Part shown: piece by piece, positions 2,059 to 57,641 of the stretch
Position numbering within the stretch: position 1 is the first letter of the stretch
How the letters are laid out: every line of letters begins with the position of its first letter
Assembly (NCBI RefSeq): GCF_014764505.1
Contig: NZ_JACXWX010000002.1
Location: 248,001-312,000 of the forward strand
Length of the DNA: 64,000 nt
Source of the DNA: Phormidium tenue FACHB-886
GTDB taxonomy: Bacteria; Cyanobacteriota; Cyanobacteriia; Elainellales; Elainellaceae
Reading direction: 5' to 3'
Position numbers and translations under genes: made by a program
The notes under the pieces: generated by a model
The model's database searches: none
What the model was told of the DNA's origin: nothing
What the model saw: the letters and a program-made list of their open reading frames with translations, nothing else

Positions 2059-2460
2059 TTAAGGCTTTTGCGTGGCGATTGCGATTCGTACCCCTTCGAT
2101 TGCCCGCAGGCGATCCATTACCTGAATCACTACTCCATGAGTCACGCCTGCATCAGCATTGAGAATGACGACAGGCTGCTGTCCTGTTAAGGCAAGGGCG
2201 CGAATTTGAGCTTCTAGAGTATCTAACGTCATGGGCTGGCGATTGAGGGCGAGGTTGCCTTGAGCATCGATCGTCACCACCGTTTGAGTTTGGGGTTGCC
2301 CTTGGGAAGTGGCAGCCGTCGGCAAATTGACAGGCAAGCCTTCAGAGCGCGTCAGAAACAAGCTTGAAAAGATAAAGAAGGTGAGAATGGCAAAGACCAC
2401 ATCGATCATGGGCACGATGTTGATCTGATAGGGGGGTTCTGGATCTTCAGGCAGACGCAT
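2059..2460 (-). CDS. exbD: ExbD/TolR-family biopolymer transport protein
   Basis: Small inner-membrane protein of the proton-driven ExbB/ExbD (TolQ/TolR) motor. The 133-residue protein has a short cytoplasmic N-terminus, one transmembrane helix (residues about 14-36) containing the essential aspartate in NIVPMIDVVFAILTFFIF, and a periplasmic domain. The first 14 bases overlap the end of exbB (2447-3094), so the two are translationally coupled. No TonB or receptor gene is adjacent. A second, separate exbB-exbD-exbD set lies at 55.7-57.3 kb; the partner of this pair cannot be told from context. Confidence 0.9.
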   Translation of the reverse strand: MRLPEDPEPPYQINIVPMIDVVFAILTFFIFSSLFLTRSEGLPVNLPTAATSQGQPQTQTVVTIDAQGNLALNRQPMTLDTLEAQIRALALTGQQPVVILNADAGVTHGVVIQVMDRLRAIEGVRIAIATQKP

Positions 2461-3094
2461 GGGGAATTCCTCCGCGATCGTATCGCCGACGGTGAATCAG
2501 CTCTAGCTGCCCGCCGTACTCTTGAATTAGCGCTAGCTGCCGCTGGTAAAGCCCACGAAACGTGTTAGCAAACAGCAACGTAAAGATGGCAACGACCAGC
2601 CCGCTTGCCGTGGAAATTAGCGCTTCGCTGATGCCGCCCGTTACCCCTGCACTATTGGTGCCACCTACATCGCCGATTCTAAGGGAGGCGAAAGAGTTGA
2701 TCAAACCCAGCACGGTTCCCAACAGCCCTAGCAGTGGCGAAACGCTAATTACCGTATCAAACACGGTGTTAAACCGCTTCAGCAATGGAATTTCTGCTTG
2801 GGCTGCGCTCTCCAGCGCCAACCGAAATTCATCTGCACTAGCTTGCTCTAGCTCTAAGGCAGCTAGAAAAATGCGGGCGATCGGCAAGTTGGTATGCTGC
2901 TCCAGCTTTTGCATTGCTGCTTTTGTGCTGCGACGATATAGCCCCAGCGCCTCGCGCACCACTTTATCTTGCCGCCGCACCACCCGCCACCAAAACAGGC
3001 TCCGCTCTAGAATCAGCGCTACCGCCAGGATTGATAGTCCCAGCAGAGGAACCATGACGATTCCACCGAGGACAAAGAAGTTGACGATGGACAT
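2447..3094 (-). CDS. exbB: ExbB/TolQ/MotA-family proton channel protein
   Basis: Inner-membrane subunit that with ExbD forms a proton-driven motor energising outer-membrane or envelope processes. The 215 residues contain an N-terminal transmembrane helix (about 8-30), a cytoplasmic helical domain, and two closely spaced membrane segments with PLLGLLGTVLGLINSFASL near residue 120 and ISEALISTASGLVVAIFTLL near residue 155, the MotA/TolQ/ExbB signature. It is the first gene of a two-gene unit and its end overlaps the start of exbD by 14 bases. Confidence 0.92.
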   Translation of the reverse strand: MSIVNFFVLGGIVMVPLLGLSILAVALILERSLFWWRVVRRQDKVVREALGLYRRSTKAAMQKLEQHTNLPIARIFLAALELEQASADEFRLALESAAQAEIPLLKRFNTVFDTVISVSPLLGLLGTVLGLINSFASLRIGDVGGTNSAGVTGGISEALISTASGLVVAIFTLLFANTFRGLYQRQLALIQEYGGQLELIHRRRYDRGGIPHASA

Positions 3095-49893: not shown

Positions 49894-50727
49894 CTAGCCA
49901 AATCGCCCTGCTACATAGTCGCGGGTCCGTTGATCGACTGCGCTATTGAAAATTTGGGCGGTCTCTCCAAACTCTACCATGCGGCCGATCTGGCTTTCAT
50001 CCGTGCTGAAGAAGGCAGTGTAGTCAGAGATGCGGGCAGCTTGCTGCATGTTGTGCGTCACGATCGCAATCGTCAAATCATTTCGCAGCGAGTGGATTAG
50101 CTGTTCAATCTTCATAGTGGCGATCGGGTCGAGCGCTGAGCAAGGTTCATCCATCAGCAGCACCTTGGGCTTAACGGCTAGTGCCCGCGCAATACAGAGC
50201 CGCTGTTGCTGTCCGCCCGAAAGCCCAAAGGCAGACTTGAAGAGATGGTCTTTGACTTCATCCCAGAGGGCCGCATCAACTAGCGCAGCTTGCACGATCT
50301 CGTCTAGCTGCGATCTGGAGGGGCGATCGGCAATACGAATGCCATAGGCAACGTTTTCGTAGATGCTCATAGCAAACGGGTTGGGCTTCTGGAACACCAT
50401 ACCAATCTGCCGTCGTAGCCGATTGAGATTGACGCGGGGGTGATAGATATCTTGCCCAAAGAAGTCTACGCGCCCTTTGATGCGAACTTCTGTTTCTAAC
50501 TCGCCAATGCGGTTTAAGGCTTTGACAAAGGTAGATTTGCCACAGCCCGACGGACCAATAATCGCGGTGACGCGCCGCTGTGGGATGGCTAAAGTTACGC
50601 CTTCCAGCACTTTGCGAGCGCCATAAAAGAAACCCATATTGATCGCCTGCATGGCTGGAACGCTTCCAATATCTAATGCAGCTTTAGAGTTGAAATAGGT
50701 TTTGGGATTGGGGTTGAAGGAGGTCAT
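49894..50727 (-). CDS. pstB: phosphate ABC transporter ATP-binding protein
   Basis: A 277-residue ATPase of the high-affinity phosphate importer. It has Walker A GPSGCGKSTFVKAL, the ABC signature FGLSGGQQQRLCIARAL, Walker B VLLMDEPCSALDP and the switch VTHNMQQAARISDY, all typical of PstB. It ends a pstS-pstC-pstA-pstB unit transcribed leftwards; spacing to pstA is 14 bases. The ATPase drives uptake of phosphate bound by PstS through PstC/PstA. Confidence 0.97.
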   Translation of the reverse strand: MTSFNPNPKTYFNSKAALDIGSVPAMQAINMGFFYGARKVLEGVTLAIPQRRVTAIIGPSGCGKSTFVKALNRIGELETEVRIKGRVDFFGQDIYHPRVNLNRLRRQIGMVFQKPNPFAMSIYENVAYGIRIADRPSRSQLDEIVQAALVDAALWDEVKDHLFKSAFGLSGGQQQRLCIARALAVKPKVLLMDEPCSALDPIATMKIEQLIHSLRNDLTIAIVTHNMQQAARISDYTAFFSTDESQIGRMVEFGETAQIFNSAVDQRTRDYVAGRFG

Positions 50728-50741
50728 TAGCTCAGGGCAAG

Positions 50742-51626
50742 TCAGCTTGATTTACGAGTGACAAGGCGCGAGAAGATGTTGATGGTGAGAATGACTGCTA
50801 GAAGTACCAAGGCTGCCGTCCAGCCCATAGCGTTCTGTTCAGGAAAGGGCGAGTTTGCGTAGTTATAGATTAGAACGGAAAGAGAAGCTGTGGGGCTATT
50901 GAGGCTACTGAGCCAGTTGTCGCTGGAGAGGGCGGTAAAAATCAGCGGAGCCGTTTCGCCTGCTGCCCGGGCGATCGCCAGTAAAATCCCAGTGACAATT
51001 CCCGGCAGAGCCGTCTTCAATACAATTCGCCAAGTGGTTTGAAACGGATTTCCACCCAGCGCTGCAGAAGCCAACCGCTGTGAAGACGGAACCAGCAGCA
51101 AGGCAGACTCAGTGGATAAAGTGACGATCGGCAGCATGATAATTGCCAGCGCAAAGCTACCTGCCCAAGCCGAAAACTCTTTGGTGGAAAGCACAATCAC
51201 ACCATAGGCAAACACACCCACCACAATCGAAGGAACGCCGCTGAGAATGACAATAATAAATCGGACAAAATATGCTAACCCAGAGGACTGCCCAAACTCT
51301 GCCAGATAGATTGCTGTCATCACTCCAAACGGAATGCTAATCAGCGAGGCCATGCCCACTATGACCACGGTGCCCACGATCGCGTTAGCAATTCCGTTGG
51401 TAACATCAGTCATGCCCATGGGTGCGGGCAATGAGGTGAGGGTTTGCCAACTCAGCTGCGGCAACCCTTGCTGCAGAATGGACAGCAGCACAGCAAACAG
51501 CGGCACTAGCGCCAATGCCGTCAGGCTGGTGACGATCGCTGTCATTAGATAGCCAAAAATTTGTCGTCTCAGGGGTAGAGTGCCTTGTAAATCAATAAGA
51601 GAAGCTTCAGGAATAGAGCCTTGCAT
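50742..51626 (-). CDS. pstA: phosphate ABC transporter permease
   Basis: A 294-residue permease with about six membrane helices. It has LPQLSWQTLTSLPAPMGMTD, NAIVGTVVIVGMASLISIPFG and the EAA-like loop ALGGNPFQTTWRIVLKTALPG, matching PstA. It pairs with PstC to form the channel. ATG at 51626 was taken in place of the upstream TTG at 51632. It is 22 bases downstream of pstC. Confidence 0.95.
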   Translation of the reverse strand: MQGSIPEASLIDLQGTLPLRRQIFGYLMTAIVTSLTALALVPLFAVLLSILQQGLPQLSWQTLTSLPAPMGMTDVTNGIANAIVGTVVIVGMASLISIPFGVMTAIYLAEFGQSSGLAYFVRFIIVILSGVPSIVVGVFAYGVIVLSTKEFSAWAGSFALAIIMLPIVTLSTESALLLVPSSQRLASAALGGNPFQTTWRIVLKTALPGIVTGILLAIARAAGETAPLIFTALSSDNWLSSLNSPTASLSVLIYNYANSPFPEQNAMGWTAALVLLAVILTINIFSRLVTRKSS

Positions 51627-51648
51627 AATCAATAGAGATATTTTTCAG

Positions 51649-52611
51649 TTACGGATTATCCATACCGCGTGACTGGCTCAAAGACTCAATAATGTAACTC
51701 GCCAGAATGTTGACGCCCAGAGTTAGAACAAACAGAATCAATGCTAAATACATCAAGGCGCTAATGTGCAAATCATCAAGCGCTTCAGCAAATTGATTTG
51801 CCAGGACTGCCGGAATCGTGCTGCCCAAATCCAGCAGAGAAAGGCTGAGTTGAGTGGAGTTGCCAATTACCATAGTGACTGCCATCGTTTCACCCAGTGC
51901 TCTACCCAAACCCAACGTTACCGCACCCAAAATACCCGGAGTTGCCATTGGCAAGATAATCCGAAATAGCGTCTCCCACAGAGTCGCCCCCAGCGCTCTA
52001 GAGGCGGCTTGCAGCTCTCGCGGTAAGGCTAGCAGCACTTCCCGACTGATCGCCGCGATCGTCGGCAGGATCATGATCGCCAAGATCACGCCTGCTACTA
52101 GCGTTCCAGCGCCAATCGGCTCAGTGCCAAATAGCGGCAGCCAGCCAAAGGATCTAAATAACCATTGCTGCACCGGCACCAGGAACGGGATTAGCACAAA
52201 AATGCCCCATAGCCCAATGATGACGCTGGGAATAGCCGCAATCAGCTCTATGAGAATGGCTAGGGGCGATCGTAGCCAGCGCGGCAGAAAGGTTTCGCTC
52301 GTCACCAGTGCGACCGCGATCCCCACGGGAACGGCTAGAAGGACGGCGATCGTGGAAGTTACCAGGGTGCCGTAGATGTAGGGCAAACCGCCAAAGACAA
52401 GCTCTCCAATATTCCAGTCTTGGCTCCAGAGAAATCCCAGCCCAAACTGCCGCATGGCAGGCAGCGCAGCCATCAAAATTACGCCGATCATCCAAAACAG
52501 CACGATCATTGAACCAATGGCAAACGCTTGGGTAGCCCAGCGAAATCCTTGGTTGAGCGACTCTGCTCTGTTGTTGGCAGTGGACAAGTCTAGGTCAGTG
52601 CGATCGAACAT
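51649..52611 (-). CDS. pstC: phosphate ABC transporter permease
   Basis: A 320-residue permease with about six membrane helices and the PstC features WSQDWNIGELVFGGLPYIYG, AIPSVIIGLWGIFVLIPFL and the EAA-like loop ALGATLWETLFRIILPMATPG. It partners PstA in the phosphate channel. It follows pstS by about 130 bases and is followed closely by pstA. The start is ATG at 52611. Confidence 0.95.
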   Translation of the reverse strand: MFDRTDLDLSTANNRAESLNQGFRWATQAFAIGSMIVLFWMIGVILMAALPAMRQFGLGFLWSQDWNIGELVFGGLPYIYGTLVTSTIAVLLAVPVGIAVALVTSETFLPRWLRSPLAILIELIAAIPSVIIGLWGIFVLIPFLVPVQQWLFRSFGWLPLFGTEPIGAGTLVAGVILAIMILPTIAAISREVLLALPRELQAASRALGATLWETLFRIILPMATPGILGAVTLGLGRALGETMAVTMVIGNSTQLSLSLLDLGSTIPAVLANQFAEALDDLHISALMYLALILFVLTLGVNILASYIIESLSQSRGMDNP

Positions 52612-52743
52612 TGAATTGAAACAAAAAATTAAATAAAGAGAGATTTAAAGATACTTGGTGAAGAACTAGATAGAGAAAGTGGGGTGTGCGTAAGTACACC
52701 CCAAAGCAGCGCGTGATAGGTGACAGTGGTCTGAGAAGACGAT

Positions 52744-53787
52744 CTACTGCCCCACGGTGATTTCGCTGTTTACTACTTCTAGTGCCCGTTCGGCCACAGG
52801 GGCTGGAATTTGGGTGTAATCAAGTGAGTTGTTGATCTGCTGCCCATCCGTCAAGATCCATTGCAATAGCTGCTTCACGCCATCTGCCTCTGCTTGAGTG
52901 GGATAGCTCTTATAGACCATAATCCAGGTCAAGCCTGCGATCGGGTAGCCTTGATCGGGATCGTTGACAAAAACACGGAAGTTATCGGGAAAGGTGAGGC
53001 TGGACAACGCTGCCTCAGCGCCTTCTACAGAGGGCGTAACATACTCACCGGCTTTGTTTTGCACCGCCGCTGAACTGAGACTGTTGGACTTAGCATAAGC
53101 ATATTCCACATAGCCGATCGCCCCCTGAGTCCGCTTCACTTCAGCCGCAACCCCTGCATTACCCCGACCTCTGACGGGGTTAATTGTCCAGTTGGGTGCT
53201 GTGCCCACACCGATTCTGCCTTTGAAGTAAGCGTCGATTGCACTCAGGTGGTTGGTGAAAATGAAGGTTGTGCCGCTGCTGTCTGCCCGCACTACAGAGC
53301 GGATGGGCAGATCGGGCAAAGTTACTCCAGGGTTATCTGCGGCAATTTTGGGATCGTTCCAGCGCGTAATTTGTCCAGAGAAGATGGCAGGCAATGTAGT
53401 CCGAGATAGCTTGAGATCGTTGACTCCAGGCAGGTTATACACCACAGAGACGGCACCACCCGCCGTGGGCACTAGCAGCACACCGCGCGAGACCTGCTGG
53501 ATCTGCTCATCGGTCATGGCTGCATCGCTGCCGCCAAAATCGACGGTGCCTGCAATCATCTGGCGGATACCTGCACCGCTGCCGACCGCTTGATAGTTGA
53601 CGTTAATACCGCTCGATTGCCGAAACTCGTTAAAGTACCGCTGATACAGGGGAGCCGGAAAGGTTGCGCCTGCGCCATTGAGTTCTAGCGTTTGGGCAAT
53701 TGCAGACAAAATTGGCGCAACGGCAATAGCTGCACCAATGGCTGAAGCAGCGATCGTTCGCCTGATAGCACGGGTTGAAAGAAGCAT
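52744..53787 (-). CDS. pstS: phosphate ABC transporter substrate-binding protein
   Basis: A 347-residue periplasmic phosphate binder. It has a signal peptide (TIAASAIGAAIAVAPILSAI, cleaved near residue 31), then ELNGAGATFPAPLYQRYFNE, YQAVGSGAGIRQMIAGTVDF with GSD nearby, and RADSSGTTFIFTNHLSA, the anion-binding segments. It is the first gene of the pstSCAB operon. In cyanobacteria pst operons are controlled by the SphS/SphR system under phosphate starvation; a possible but unproven set of phased TTAA sites lies upstream at 54226-54262. Confidence 0.96.
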   Translation of the reverse strand: MLLSTRAIRRTIAASAIGAAIAVAPILSAIAQTLELNGAGATFPAPLYQRYFNEFRQSSGINVNYQAVGSGAGIRQMIAGTVDFGGSDAAMTDEQIQQVSRGVLLVPTAGGAVSVVYNLPGVNDLKLSRTTLPAIFSGQITRWNDPKIAADNPGVTLPDLPIRSVVRADSSGTTFIFTNHLSAIDAYFKGRIGVGTAPNWTINPVRGRGNAGVAAEVKRTQGAIGYVEYAYAKSNSLSSAAVQNKAGEYVTPSVEGAEAALSSLTFPDNFRVFVNDPDQGYPIAGLTWIMVYKSYPTQAEADGVKQLLQWILTDGQQINNSLDYTQIPAPVAERALEVVNSEITVGQ

Positions 53788-54575
53788 GGCAGATATCCTT
53801 ACACAAGACTCAATAGGTGAACACTAAAGCAAGACAACAGGAAATTAGTGGAAATTAACAAAAATAGCTGACAGGACAGCAAATGACGATAGATTTTGCT
53901 AGAGATCGAAGCTATATGAAAAATTAAGAAAACTACGATCGAGATATTTTCTATTGCCATTCTTTGGACTATTTTTGCTCGGAAATGACACCACAAATTT
54001 GATTCGCAGCTATAGCCAAATTTGGATCAACTCGGCATTCATTCTAGAGATAGAGGTGAGAACTAAATCGCAGCCTTTAAATTTACAAAGAAATATTCCA
54101 CTGCCAAACATGCCAGCCTGCGTTGTAACTCGCTCTATCGCAGATTGAAAAAGTTGTTAATCGCAAGCTTTAGCGGCTGGTTAATCTCTTCAAATCAACC
54201 AATGATAAACGTACTACTATTTCAGTTAAAACAAATTAATATGCAGATTAACTAAGCGTTAAAACCATAAAAGAATCATACAAATTCCTAATCTTTTCTG
54301 TTTGGGCAATCGAAAGATTATCAGTGAAATAAGCAGCAATTAAATCTTGTTTAAGCACTTACTTTATAGATTGAACAAGCGGTTCTAAGCTGGAATTTTT
54401 TTGGGAAATATTCAGCCTATTTTTGTGCTTTCTGAACTTCTAAAGTTTGGTTTTTAGATACCATTAGTGAAGAGAAGCAATCAGATCTGAAAGATATCTC
54501 GATTTCTAATGACGCTTCTTGGCGAGCTTTTTAGTGGAATAGGCTTCGGCTACTCCCAGAGATAAAACACAAACA
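53788..54575. promoter_or_regulatory. divergent regulatory region pstS / TonB-like gene
   Basis: About 790 AT-rich bases. Four TTAA motifs at 54226, 54236, 54248 and 54259 are spaced 10, 12 and 11 bases, as for a Pho-box array, though flanking bases fit the (C/T)TTAACCT consensus poorly. TGGTT / AACCA at 54178-54201 forms a short inverted repeat. No gene or RNA was recognised. Confidence 0.4.
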
Positions 54576-55703
54576 ATGGCACTCTCGTATCCTGCAAACC
54601 GCAAAAAATTTCAAATTCCCTGGAAGTCGATCGTTCGTCCGATGCTGCTTGCTTCTTTAGGGCTGCACGCCTTATTTTTGCTTTTCCCTTTATCTGCCGA
54701 TCAGCCCATAAAACCACCCGAACAAAAACCCGAAGAGAAGATCTCGCTGACTCAACTTCCTCCCCAAGAAAGCATTCTAAAGACACCTGCTTCCCCAAAT
54801 CCTCAAGTCCAGCCCTCACGCGTTACTCCTCGCGTGACCCCACGTGTCACGACCGTCCAACGGACCCCTGCTGTTCCTCGCCCCTCGGTAGCAGTTGCGC
54901 CGGCAGCGGCGCCTAGCCCGCCTGCTGCTCAACCCAGCCCTGCCGCATCTCCCGTTGTTGAGAATACCGCTAGCGCCGCCGATCCCTTTGCTGCAGATTT
55001 TCCACAGTATCCCAATGACCAACCCGGTTCTTTTGGGCTACCCGCTGCCTTCGATCCCTTTAGCCGCAAAACAGCCGACTCGATGGAGCAGGTAAGCGGC
55101 TGGTTTCAGAGCCAGATGCAGGCGACAGGGTTCTTGGCTCAGCCTGTGACTCAGGCTGGACGCACGGTGTATCAGGTGTCTAAAGATGGTAAAAGCAAAT
55201 TCTTGAGTTTGATTCCGAATGCCCAAGGCGCGGGAACCAGTATTATTCTCAGCGATCAACTGTTGCCTGATGATTTGGGCAGCAGCAACGTGGTCAGCCC
55301 TGAAGAGCAAGCGTTCTACCAGAACCTAGCTGAAATTATTCAAGATGCAAATCCGGACAGTGCATGGCAGGATCTAGACAACCCGCGAATTTTGCCGGAG
55401 CCCTCTGCATTTTATGCCCGGGTGGTCAGCGAGCAGGAGTACTTGTCTGGCTCAATATCAGAACTGCAGCCCGGCATTGAGCGGAAGGTCGTTCATGTGG
55501 GGCAGACCCCAGAGGCTCTGTTTGCAGATATTGCTACGATGATGCAGACTGCTGAAATTGAGGTTGCACCTCAAGGAACCTACGGCGATGGAGCGCTCTA
55601 TCAGCTAAGCCGCGATGGGGTTACGCGCTTTCTCAGCCTCGTACCGACGCAGGATGGCAATACAGCTATCTTTATCTGGACAAACTCTCCAAACGAAGGT
55701 TAA
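54576..55703 (+). CDS. TonB-like anchored protein with duplicated C-terminal module
   Basis: A 375-residue protein built like TonB: a cytoplasmic basic start, one membrane helix (MLLASLGLHALFLLFPLSA, residues about 23-41), then a long Pro-rich stretch (residues about 45-130), then a periplasmic part. The C-terminus lacks the usual TonB YP motif. Instead it has a duplicated module: residues about 169-225 and 312-370, sharing YQ(V/L)S(K/R)DG.(S/T)(K/R)FLSL(I/V)P. It faces an exbB-exbD-exbD operon and ends 17 bases from exbD, so it is probably the motor's transmitting arm. Its outer-membrane partner is unknown. The start ATG is at 54576. Confidence 0.75.
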   Translation: MALSYPANRKKFQIPWKSIVRPMLLASLGLHALFLLFPLSADQPIKPPEQKPEEKISLTQLPPQESILKTPASPNPQVQPSRVTPRVTPRVTTVQRTPAVPRPSVAVAPAAAPSPPAAQPSPAASPVVENTASAADPFAADFPQYPNDQPGSFGLPAAFDPFSRKTADSMEQVSGWFQSQMQATGFLAQPVTQAGRTVYQVSKDGKSKFLSLIPNAQGAGTSIILSDQLLPDDLGSSNVVSPEEQAFYQNLAEIIQDANPDSAWQDLDNPRILPEPSAFYARVVSEQEYLSGSISELQPGIERKVVHVGQTPEALFADIATMMQTAEIEVAPQGTYGDGALYQLSRDGVTRFLSLVPTQDGNTAIFIWTNSPNEG

Positions 55704-55720
55704 AGGCAGCCAGCGGTACA

Positions 55721-56161
55721 TCAACCTTGCTGTGAGATCGACAGCGAAACCCGATCGCCGCCTATATCTCGCATAGTTTTGAGCAAGTCTTGCACAGCCC
55801 TAAAGTCTAAGCCGCGATCGGCTTTAAGGATTACCTGTCCGTCAGGGTTTTGGTTGAGGAAGGTGACAAGGCGATCGGCAAGCTCGTCTGAGCTGAGTTG
55901 ACGCTCGTCCATCATGATCTCGCCCTGCGGATTGAGTCCTACTACCAGCTGATTGGCAGTATTCCTTTGCTGACTCTGCACCCCTTCCCCTTCAGTTCTG
56001 GGCAGGTTAATGCCCGCCATTATCTGCGCGTTAAACGTCATTGAAACGATGATGAAAAACGTTAGCACCGTCATCAACACATCCATCATTGGCACCAGGT
56101 TCACTTCTGGCATCTGATTTGGGTCAGGTCGATTCCTGCGGCTGCTAAATCTACGGGTCAT
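55721..56161 (-). CDS. exbD: ExbD-family protein, second copy
   Basis: A 146-residue ExbD/TolR protein. Basic N-terminus, then EVNLVPMMDVLMTVLTFFII with the proton-carrying Asp in the membrane helix, then a periplasmic domain ending in GDRVSLSISQ. It is the third gene of exbB-exbD-exbD; 41 bases separate it from the other exbD. It differs from the neighbour in the segment after the helix (FNAQIMAGINLPRTE). It converges with the TonB-like gene. Confidence 0.92.
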   Translation of the reverse strand: MTRRFSSRRNRPDPNQMPEVNLVPMMDVLMTVLTFFIIVSMTFNAQIMAGINLPRTEGEGVQSQQRNTANQLVVGLNPQGEIMMDERQLSSDELADRLVTFLNQNPDGQVILKADRGLDFRAVQDLLKTMRDIGGDRVSLSISQQG

Positions 56162-56202
56162 AATTTCGGTTGTGGATGAATCGCTAAAAGTTATTTAGCT
56201 TG

Positions 56203-56613
56203 TTATTCAATGGCTAGTGAGATGCGATCGCCGCCGATCGCTTTCATCCCTCCCAGAAGAGTAATAACTTGTTCGTAAGGCACATCTGGCGCAGCTTGCA
56301 GCACAACCACACCTTTGGGATTTCCAGCCAGATAAGTTCTAATCTGCTGCATTAGCTGTGTTTCTGCAACTGGTCGATCGGCAACAGTTAAGCCTTGAAG
56401 CGCTAGCTTGGCGATCAGTGGGTCAGGGTTTGCTTCAGCGGGCGTGTTTTGCTGAGAGCTGGGCAGTTGAACTTCTATCCCCTGCTCTATGCCTAGCGTC
56501 ATGGAAACGATGATGAAAAACGTCAGCACCGTCATCAACACATCCAGCATGGGAATCAGGTTGACTTCAGGGGGGCGCTGGTGGGCGTTACGTCTATCTC
56601 TAAAGCGCGTCAT
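56203..56613 (-). CDS. exbD: ExbD-family protein, first copy
   Basis: A 136-residue ExbD/TolR protein with EVNLIPMLDVLMTVLTFFII in the single helix and a periplasmic domain ending GDRISLAIE. The ATG at 56613 overlaps the stop of exbB in an ATGA arrangement (4 bases), implying translational coupling; upstream in-frame sequence to 56658 would overlap exbB much more. Two different ExbD proteins with one ExbB may form a mixed motor. Confidence 0.92.
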   Translation of the reverse strand: MTRFRDRRNAHQRPPEVNLIPMLDVLMTVLTFFIIVSMTLGIEQGIEVQLPSSQQNTPAEANPDPLIAKLALQGLTVADRPVAETQLMQQIRTYLAGNPKGVVVLQAAPDVPYEQVITLLGGMKAIGGDRISLAIE

Positions 56614-57275
56614 AACCGCTCTCGATCGCCTGTTGGCAGCAACGTTTTTTCGTACCAATACTGGCGATAGATTAGCTCTAGCTCTGCGCCCACTTCTGCG
56701 AAATAATCCATTTGGCGGGCTTGCAGCGTCACTAGCGATCGAAAGATAGCCAGGGCAATGATGGCGACGATCATGCCGCCTGCGGTTGTAATCAGCGCTT
56801 CTCCAATTCCGGCAGCCGCTCTGGTGGTGCTTTCAGCAGAACCCCCGCCGCCAATATTCAGGTTGCTGAAGGTGGCAATCAAACCCGTCACCGTTCCCAG
56901 TAGCCCCAGCAGCGGTGCAACTGCCACAACGGTTTCTAGAAGTTTGTCCCCCTTTCGCATCTGGGCAAATTCTTTATCGCCCACTGCCTCCATCGCTAGC
57001 CGAAACGTTTCTGGTGTAGGACGGTGCAGCCGCAGCGGCGCCAGCAGATACCGACCGATGGGCAAGCCGATCGCCCGTTCTGCAACAACACGGGCTTCCT
57101 CTAAGTCATAATGGGCTGCTTCTAGTACATCATGCACAATCCGGTCTTCCTGGCTTGTCAGCTGATACCAAAACCAAGCCCTCTCCAGTCCGCAGGCGAT
57201 CGTGGCAACCGATAGCCCCATCATTGGGATCATCGTCGGACCACCTTTTATCACCAAGTCAAGTAAATTGGACAT
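56610..57275 (-). CDS. exbB: ExbB/TolQ-family proton channel protein
   Basis: A 221-residue ExbB. N-terminal helix (GGPTMIPMMGLSVATIACGL), cytoplasmic domain, then VVAVAPLLGLLGTVTGLIAT and GIGEALITTAGGMIVAIIAL, the paired membrane segments with channel-lining Thr residues. It leads an exbB-exbD-exbD unit coupled by a 4-base overlap to the first exbD. It differs from the other ExbB at 2447-3094, so the two motors are not recent duplicates. Start ATG at 57275, GTG at 57281 being an alternative. Confidence 0.92.
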   Translation of the reverse strand: MSNLLDLVIKGGPTMIPMMGLSVATIACGLERAWFWYQLTSQEDRIVHDVLEAAHYDLEEARVVAERAIGLPIGRYLLAPLRLHRPTPETFRLAMEAVGDKEFAQMRKGDKLLETVVAVAPLLGLLGTVTGLIATFSNLNIGGGGSAESTTRAAAGIGEALITTAGGMIVAIIALAIFRSLVTLQARQMDYFAEVGAELELIYRQYWYEKTLLPTGDRERL

Positions 57276-57641
57276 GACCACCGAGCTTGAATCTGTAAAA
57301 GTGAGAGATCAAACGCTTATTCAAGCGCTTATTCAAATTCTAGAATGCTCTGGACACACCGATCAAAGCGATTTAGCGGAGCTACCCTCTCGACAGGATA
57401 GTGCAGCCGTAGAAGGGTTCTGATCGATTGAAAGTAGTCAAAATACTAACATCAGGATACTAACATCAGGTTAAGCCAGCAGAACTGACGCATTTTGTAG
57501 GAGTGTATTTCTCCAAGGGGCAACTGTGTCGGGCAGGGGTTTTTGTTGTGTGCGAAGCGCTACAGAGGGCTTGCGTCAGTCCTGAATTTGGGCGGAAGAT
57601 CGGCTTAGAATAGCTAAATGTCCTGATGGTGTACCTGATTT
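57276..57641. other. divergent region exbB / hisB
   Basis: About 366 bases with a 14-base perfect tandem duplication at 57443-57470. A 49-codon plus-strand frame at 57274-57423 overlaps the exbB start and is not supported. The right part should hold the hisB promoter; no riboswitch or His leader peptide was recognised. Confidence 0.4.
57443..57470. repeat. perfect 14-bp tandem duplication
   Basis: ATACTAACATCAGG at 57443-57456 is repeated exactly at 57457-57470, about 170 bases upstream of hisB. Two copies only. Confidence 0.85.

Follow-up and report, generated by a model that had tools for sequence, protein, structure and literature searches.

A cyanobacterial family of TonB-like proteins with a new periplasmic module, encoded beside importers of phosphate, iron, and sulphate

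We analysed a 64,000-nucleotide stretch of DNA from Phormidium tenue FACHB-886 (contig NZ_JACXWX010000002.1, positions 248,001 to 312,000), which we call the window. It contains a gene for a TonB-like transducer flanked by a pst operon for phosphate import and by genes for an ExbB–ExbD motor. The transducer gene diverges from pstS and is convergent with the exbD-exbD-exbB genes, which lie on the minus strand. The original prediction for this DNA spanned the transducer and motor genes (54576–57275); the pst operon (49894–53787) falls outside that span and is the transducer's most informative neighbour. The genes and protein features are as follows.

54576–55703, plus strand: TonB-like transducer of 375 amino acids with an N-type and a C-type module (open reading frame, profile search).
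54630–54692, plus strand: N-terminal transmembrane helix MLLASLGLHALFLLFPL with S27-LGL-H31, an SxxxH motif (read from the sequence, alignment).
54699–55052, plus strand: Pro-rich periplasmic linker (composition).
55056–55259, plus strand: N-type module, predicted β-α-β4 (profile search, structure prediction).
55488–55694, plus strand: C-type module, YGDGALYQLSRDG...FLSLVPT...W..SP (profile search, structure prediction).
55721–56161, minus strand: exbD copy a, 146 amino acids, conserved transmembrane Asp in PMMDVLMTVLTFF (PF02472, E 2.9e-24).
56203–56658, minus strand: exbD copy b, conserved transmembrane Asp in PMLDVLMTVLTFF (PF02472, E 1.2e-21).
56610–57281, minus strand: exbB of a dedicated lineage, likely start ATG 57275 (PF01618, E 4.7e-29; tree).
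52744–53787, minus strand: pstS, phosphate-binding protein (TIGR00975, 346 bits, cut-off 205).
51649–52611, minus strand: pstC (TIGR02138, 287 bits, cut-off 196).
50742–51632, minus strand: pstA (TIGR00974, 273 bits, cut-off 193).
49894–50727, minus strand: pstB (TIGR00972, 370 bits, cut-off 343).

The transducer has the anchor and linker of a TonB protein, as had been predicted. Its single transmembrane helix carries SLGLH, and its linker of ∼135 amino acids is 21% Pro (family medians, 137–172 amino acids). S27 and H31 are invariant in 12 aligned sequences; among the 69 members of the family surveyed below, the transmembrane His is present in 67 and the pattern S..[aliphatic]H in 51. The two members without the His are a gene fragment in locus L058 and a protein in L093, where the choice of helix is doubtful. 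An SxxxH arrangement is how TonB and TolA bind their motors (PMC12204202). The absence of a TonB C-terminal fold, also part of the original prediction, agrees with the profile searches: Pfam yielded neither TonB_C nor any other match at E ≤ 1, and NCBIfam, including its TonB models, yielded a single nonsignificant match (E 0.15). When the window genome was scanned for TonB_C, three other loci matched but the transducer did not.

Instead, the periplasmic end consists of two copies of one module, and both of the cores predicted for them were found (YQVSKDG...FLSLIP at residues 199–214 and YQLSRDG...FLSLVP at residues 342–357). A profile derived from copy 2 recovered copy 1 (residues 172–226, E 4e-18) along with copy 2 (residues 315–372, E 2e-23). 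N-type and C-type profiles built across relatives matched each other (hhalign probability 98.7%, E 4.2e-16), and so the duplication is not a chance resemblance; judged by these profiles, the two module types are homologous. AlphaFold2 models made from few sequences (three for the module pair, pLDDT 68; six for one module, pLDDT 78; pLDDT being the predicted local distance difference test score) gave each module a predicted topology of β-α-β-β-β-β. The TonB_C fold has its secondary-structure elements in another order. Foldseek and VIA searches with the models returned middling matches to KA1, SciW, DcrB, and BamC, with VIA Z scores of 5.8–8.3, in the background range. Because such matches are expected for a common arrangement, we claim no homology for the module. 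A profile search of PDB sequences with the modules gave only chance-level matches or short pieces of designed proteins. TonB structures were missing from the structural match lists, and nothing follows from that. Separately, several two-module members (L063, L064, L067, L062, L039, L065, and L066) have a GCxGLxxC motif with two invariant Cys residues directly before the N-type module, where a disulphide is possible; these cysteines are absent from the window transducer and its closest relatives.

The motor beside the transducer has the predicted composition of one ExbB and two different ExbD proteins, with one match to PF01618 and two to PF02472. For exbD copy b, ATG 56613 is the likely start codon, and the gene then overlaps the last bases of exbB; both ExbD proteins retain the transmembrane Asp when read from the sequence. 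In a phylogenetic tree, the ExbB proteins linked to the family form one group (93/91) apart from the window genome's three other ExbBs, one of which adjoins a genuine TonB_C protein and an ExbD; sulphate-linked ExbBs from three cyanobacterial families form a single clade (100/99). An exbB or exbD gene lies within five genes of 35 of the 69 members, across 11 cyanobacterial families, and the link with exb genes thus recurs elsewhere. The separate ExbB lineage, the Asp in both ExbDs, and the nearly universal transmembrane His argue, at the sequence level, that the family is served by a live, dedicated proton-driven motor. The window holds another ExbB–ExbD pair (2059–3094, minus strand), which has a different ExbB lineage and no recognised transducer gene adjoining it. 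A DUF4333-type protein of ∼220–290 amino acids occurs near family-linked exbB/exbD genes at L050, L051, L060, L061, L067, L069, L091, and L098, though not in the window.

The family as surveyed comprises 69 members from 47 cyanobacterial genomes in 15 families. Members were picked by sequence alone and up to 20 kb was read around each, and their neighbourhoods are therefore an unbiased readout. The window protein has relatives in 35 of the 60 related genomes searched. Three named relatives come from Leptolyngbyaceae CSU_1_4, Oculatellaceae Prado106, and filamentous cyanobacterium CCP2. Profiles of the two module types reached other families of the phylum, though only 17 and 21 of 291 evenly drawn genomes, and a search of 72,556 plasmid records gave no match. 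A gene of the Pst (phosphate), Fut (ferric iron), or Sbp (sulphate) importers lies at most two genes away from 53 of the 69 members, vs. 21 of 297 background genes situated more than six genes away within the same loci (Fisher p 3e-32). This control is generous to chance, being drawn from the same loci, and the p-value overstates independence because the members are related.

Recurrence in different arrangements is a stronger point than the p-value. The transducer gene may diverge from pstS, as in the window; follow pstB on the same strand (L067, L088, L089, L111, and L112); stand in an Sbp-transducer-exbB-exbD row (L064 and L069; reversed in L060 and L098); adjoin FutA, FutB, or FutC; or lie with exbB-exbD-exbD divergent from FutA (L102–L106). 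The links extend to 10 families for phosphate, 8 for iron, and 3 for sulphate. Importer identities were checked on examples: Pst, PstS-2, and Sbp by NCBIfam, all four window pst genes scoring above their equivalog cut-offs, and FutA by matches to solved iron-binding proteins, including 2pt1 and 2voz (E 1e-118 or better). The window genome encodes a second member of 270 amino acids, which has one N-type module and is divergent from futA. Two further gene arrangements were noted. An extra PstS-type binding protein is encoded between transducer and exbD genes at L053:8728–9822, with a matching gene in L057; and a 1068-amino-acid protein (L096:9812–13018, plus strand), which begins with an iron-type solute-binding domain and matches nothing over the long rest of its length, is divergent from a single C-type transducer.

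Members carry both modules, the N-type only, or the C-type only, and the single-module proteins partition by nutrient. As counted, single C-type proteins stand with phosphate importers in 15 cases and iron importers in none, and single N-type proteins with iron importers in 18 cases, with 2 apparent exceptions. Both exceptions, like one of the 15 C-type cases, prove to be fragments of split or truncated two-module genes (L057 and L058); with these set aside, 14 of 14 assigned intact C-type proteins lie beside Pst and 18 of 18 intact N-type proteins beside Fut. The nearest two genes on either side of four C-type proteins include no importer. Proteins with both modules are found near phosphate, sulphate, and iron importers alike. 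A divergent C-type protein at L119:8374–9186 (minus strand), which the profile missed at first, adjoins a PstS-type protein near exbB-exbD-exbD (3.5 kb), as the link between C-type modules and phosphate predicts. This protein was found from its context and has an SLLLH helix, an acidic rather than Pro-rich linker, and an LFEI...W..DP end.

A tie to TonB-dependent receptors, for which the original prediction proposed a test of co-regulation, is not supported. No such receptor was present near the members examined, and the Plug domain is absent from 11 of the 41 genomes with the family, including the single-contig genomes G008 and G040 as well as G050. G040 is also without TonB_C, and G050 has two family members, each with exb genes. 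A TonB-dependent transporter is therefore not the family's general partner, and service as TonB for receptors was ruled out as a general role. The window genome does encode three Plug-domain receptors and TonB_C proteins, at other loci.

Repeats resembling Pho boxes lie between pstS and the transducer gene.

53788–54575, no strand assigned: 788-bp divergent promoter region common to pstS and the transducer gene (sequence).
54315–54366, minus strand: Pho-box-like array of TTAA-type repeats every 11 bp, CTTAAACAagaTTTAATTGctgCTTATTTC (score reached by 1 of 300 shuffles).
54223–54274, minus strand: weaker second Pho-box-like array (repeat scan).

A Pho-box-like array scored above all 60 shuffles in each of 13 divergent pstS/transducer regions; regions between futA and a transducer gene have in general no such array. 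Across the 8.9-Mb genome, a three-repeat pattern had 12 matches, one of them at 54315–54366, vs. 25 for the reversed control. The pattern alone is consequently not diagnostic, and an attempt to define a Pho regulon by it was dropped. Farther out, ∼6 kb upstream of the transducer, the window encodes an RTX-type repeat protein of 362 amino acids (PF00353; 47497–48585, plus strand).

Taken together, we think it fairly probable that the window gene belongs to a new cyanobacterial family of transducers of the proton-motive force (PMF), each assigned to one inorganic-nutrient importer, most likely by way of an outer-membrane channel of the porin type. The ExbB–ExbD motor in the inner membrane would act as in TonB, gripping the SxxxH helix and, by analogy, pulling or turning the transducer. 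The long Pro-rich linker, in principle sufficient to cross the periplasm, would carry the one or two modules over to a component of the uptake route for the nutrient concerned, which is Pst phosphate in the window and Fut iron or Sbp sulphate at other loci. There, the modules would most likely drive or gate the passage of free ions through the channel, and the periplasmic binding protein and its ATP-binding cassette (ABC) importer would thereby be supplied against a gradient. As a member of such an uptake route, the transducer would do work that serves free-ion uptake, and the repeated position of the family beside importers suggests that cells spend membrane energy on bringing plain inorganic nutrients through the envelope. 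The earlier idea of an energy transducer with its own outer-membrane partner stands in its first half, a non-TonB module that would be driven by a motor of its own; the porin-type channel as partner is a guess. We hold more tentatively, and with some doubt, a broader proposal: PMF-powered outer-membrane transport of phosphate, sulphate, and iron that is independent of TonB receptors and uses a dedicated ExbB–ExbD, with module type (N or C) serving as a nutrient code. If ions were actively supplied to the periplasm, this would agree with the PMF-dependent accumulation of phosphate in marine bacteria (PMC7250820) and the need for ExbB–ExbD in inorganic iron uptake by Synechocystis (Jiang 2015, as reported in PMC7676907).

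Several observations weigh against this interpretation. The members share ancestry, and their counts are not independent; 16 of the 69 have no importer gene within two genes, and for many Fut-linked members the nearest five genes include no exb gene. Most sampled cyanobacteria are without the family, and ion uptake can therefore proceed without it. Near the members, neither a porin nor any other outer-membrane gene is conserved, the long unknown neighbours having proved to be housekeeping or cell-wall enzymes, and so the outer-membrane step receives no support from linkage. The partition of modules by nutrient could be a relic of two or three ancient subfamilies whose neighbouring genes were retained. 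Since the Pho-like arrays lie on the strand of pstS and may be for that gene alone, Pho control of the transducer is something we infer from sequence, and regions upstream of exbB genes mostly did not score above shuffles. Finally, Kamennaya et al. explain the PMF dependence of phosphate accumulation by ion pairing, without ExbB or TonB (PMC7250820).

The lack of a linked outer-membrane gene is accommodated by an alternative in which the transducer acts on the binding protein or ABC importer itself, motor strokes promoting the capture or release of loaded PstS, FutA, or Sbp, or their shuttling between the two membranes. Such direct action is possible because a binding-protein gene is the commonest importer neighbour (PstS directly adjacent in 15 cases, PstS-2-type PBP2 in 8, FutA in 13, and Sbp in 3), and it would suit the match between importer type and module type. 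However, three different Pfam types of binding protein would all have to be recognised, a linker of ∼140–170 amino acids is longer than work near the inner membrane needs, and ABC importers normally function without motor-driven help. We regard this alternative as unlikely, although deserving of serious consideration.

We rate as improbable a TolA-like system for envelope stability that is switched on by nutrient limitation, with the importer linkage reflecting shared regulation only. Anabaena TonB2 has been proposed to be TolA-like (PMC8597729), a motor and linker would suit such a role, and BamC is among the weak structural matches. The TolA C-terminal domain had no Pfam match in the window transducer (no TolA model was run across the family); as for tolB, pal, and ybgF, the near neighbours of members annotated so far are importers, motor genes, and housekeeping genes. 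Shared regulation leaves unexplained why proteins with one N-type module group with iron importers and those with one C-type module with phosphate importers, and why one genome has one member beside pst and a second beside futA.

An ordinary TonB whose C-terminal domain has diverged would account for the SxxxH helix, the Pro-rich linker, and the ExbB/ExbD partners, and the window genome has receptors for it to serve. Nevertheless, we find this very hard to sustain: TonB_C matches three other loci of that genome, one beside its own ExbB–ExbD, but not the transducer; the predicted β-α-β4 order is unlike the TonB_C topology; and the Plug-less genomes have no such receptors. That the linkage is inherited synteny without functional meaning is scarcely credible, for although many members come from one family (f1) and related genomes share gene order, the linkage recurs in 15 families, with several gene orders and strands and three importers.

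In the usual view, porins let free inorganic ions through the outer membrane by passive diffusion. A motor-driven family wired to Pst, Fut, and Sbp is a concrete, testable candidate for puzzles of ion uptake, in cyanobacteria other than those studied, and it extends the small set of known PMF force transducers by a new effector domain. We rate the protein as a force transducer whose effector module is new and whose task probably is too. The literature searched, most subscription papers lying outside it, yielded no report of the module or of a connection with Pst, Fut, or Sbp, and nothing relevant on exb genes linked to pst or SphX.

Compared with TonB, the family shares the single N-terminal transmembrane helix with SxxxH, the Pro-rich linker, a periplasmic C-terminal domain, and adjoining ExbB/ExbD genes. 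It differs in having one or two unrelated modules of predicted β-α-β4 topology in place of TonB_C, in being linked to free-ion ABC importers rather than receptors, and in its presence in genomes that lack receptors. Inorganic iron uptake in Synechocystis 6803 (Jiang 2015; Qiu 2018, reviewed in PMC7676907) is similar in that ExbBD-driven uptake of free iron feeds FutABC, but the review explains the process by TonB, TonB-dependent transporters, and porins and describes no transducer of the present kind. Among cyanobacterial TonB-like proteins, SjdR (formerly TonB1) and TonB2/TonB4 of Anabaena 7120 likewise are not for siderophore uptake and demonstrate that such proteins can do other work (PMC8262864, PMC8597729). 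By their descriptions they are set apart from the present family, being short or of TonB architecture, with septal or envelope phenotypes, and the literature searched held no report of them beside pst or fut genes. Alternative end domains on TonB-like transducers are already known from the vWA-type force transducers (Mol Biol Evol 2025, PMC12204202), which likewise join a TonB/TolA-like anchor and linker to a new C-terminal domain and are served by a motor that includes two different TolR/ExbD-like proteins. The vWA C-terminal domain had no Pfam match in the window transducer, whose modules are ∼70 amino acids long and predicted to be β-α-β4; the present family is thus distinguished from the vWA type by another module, by its occurrence in cyanobacteria, and by its link to ion importers.

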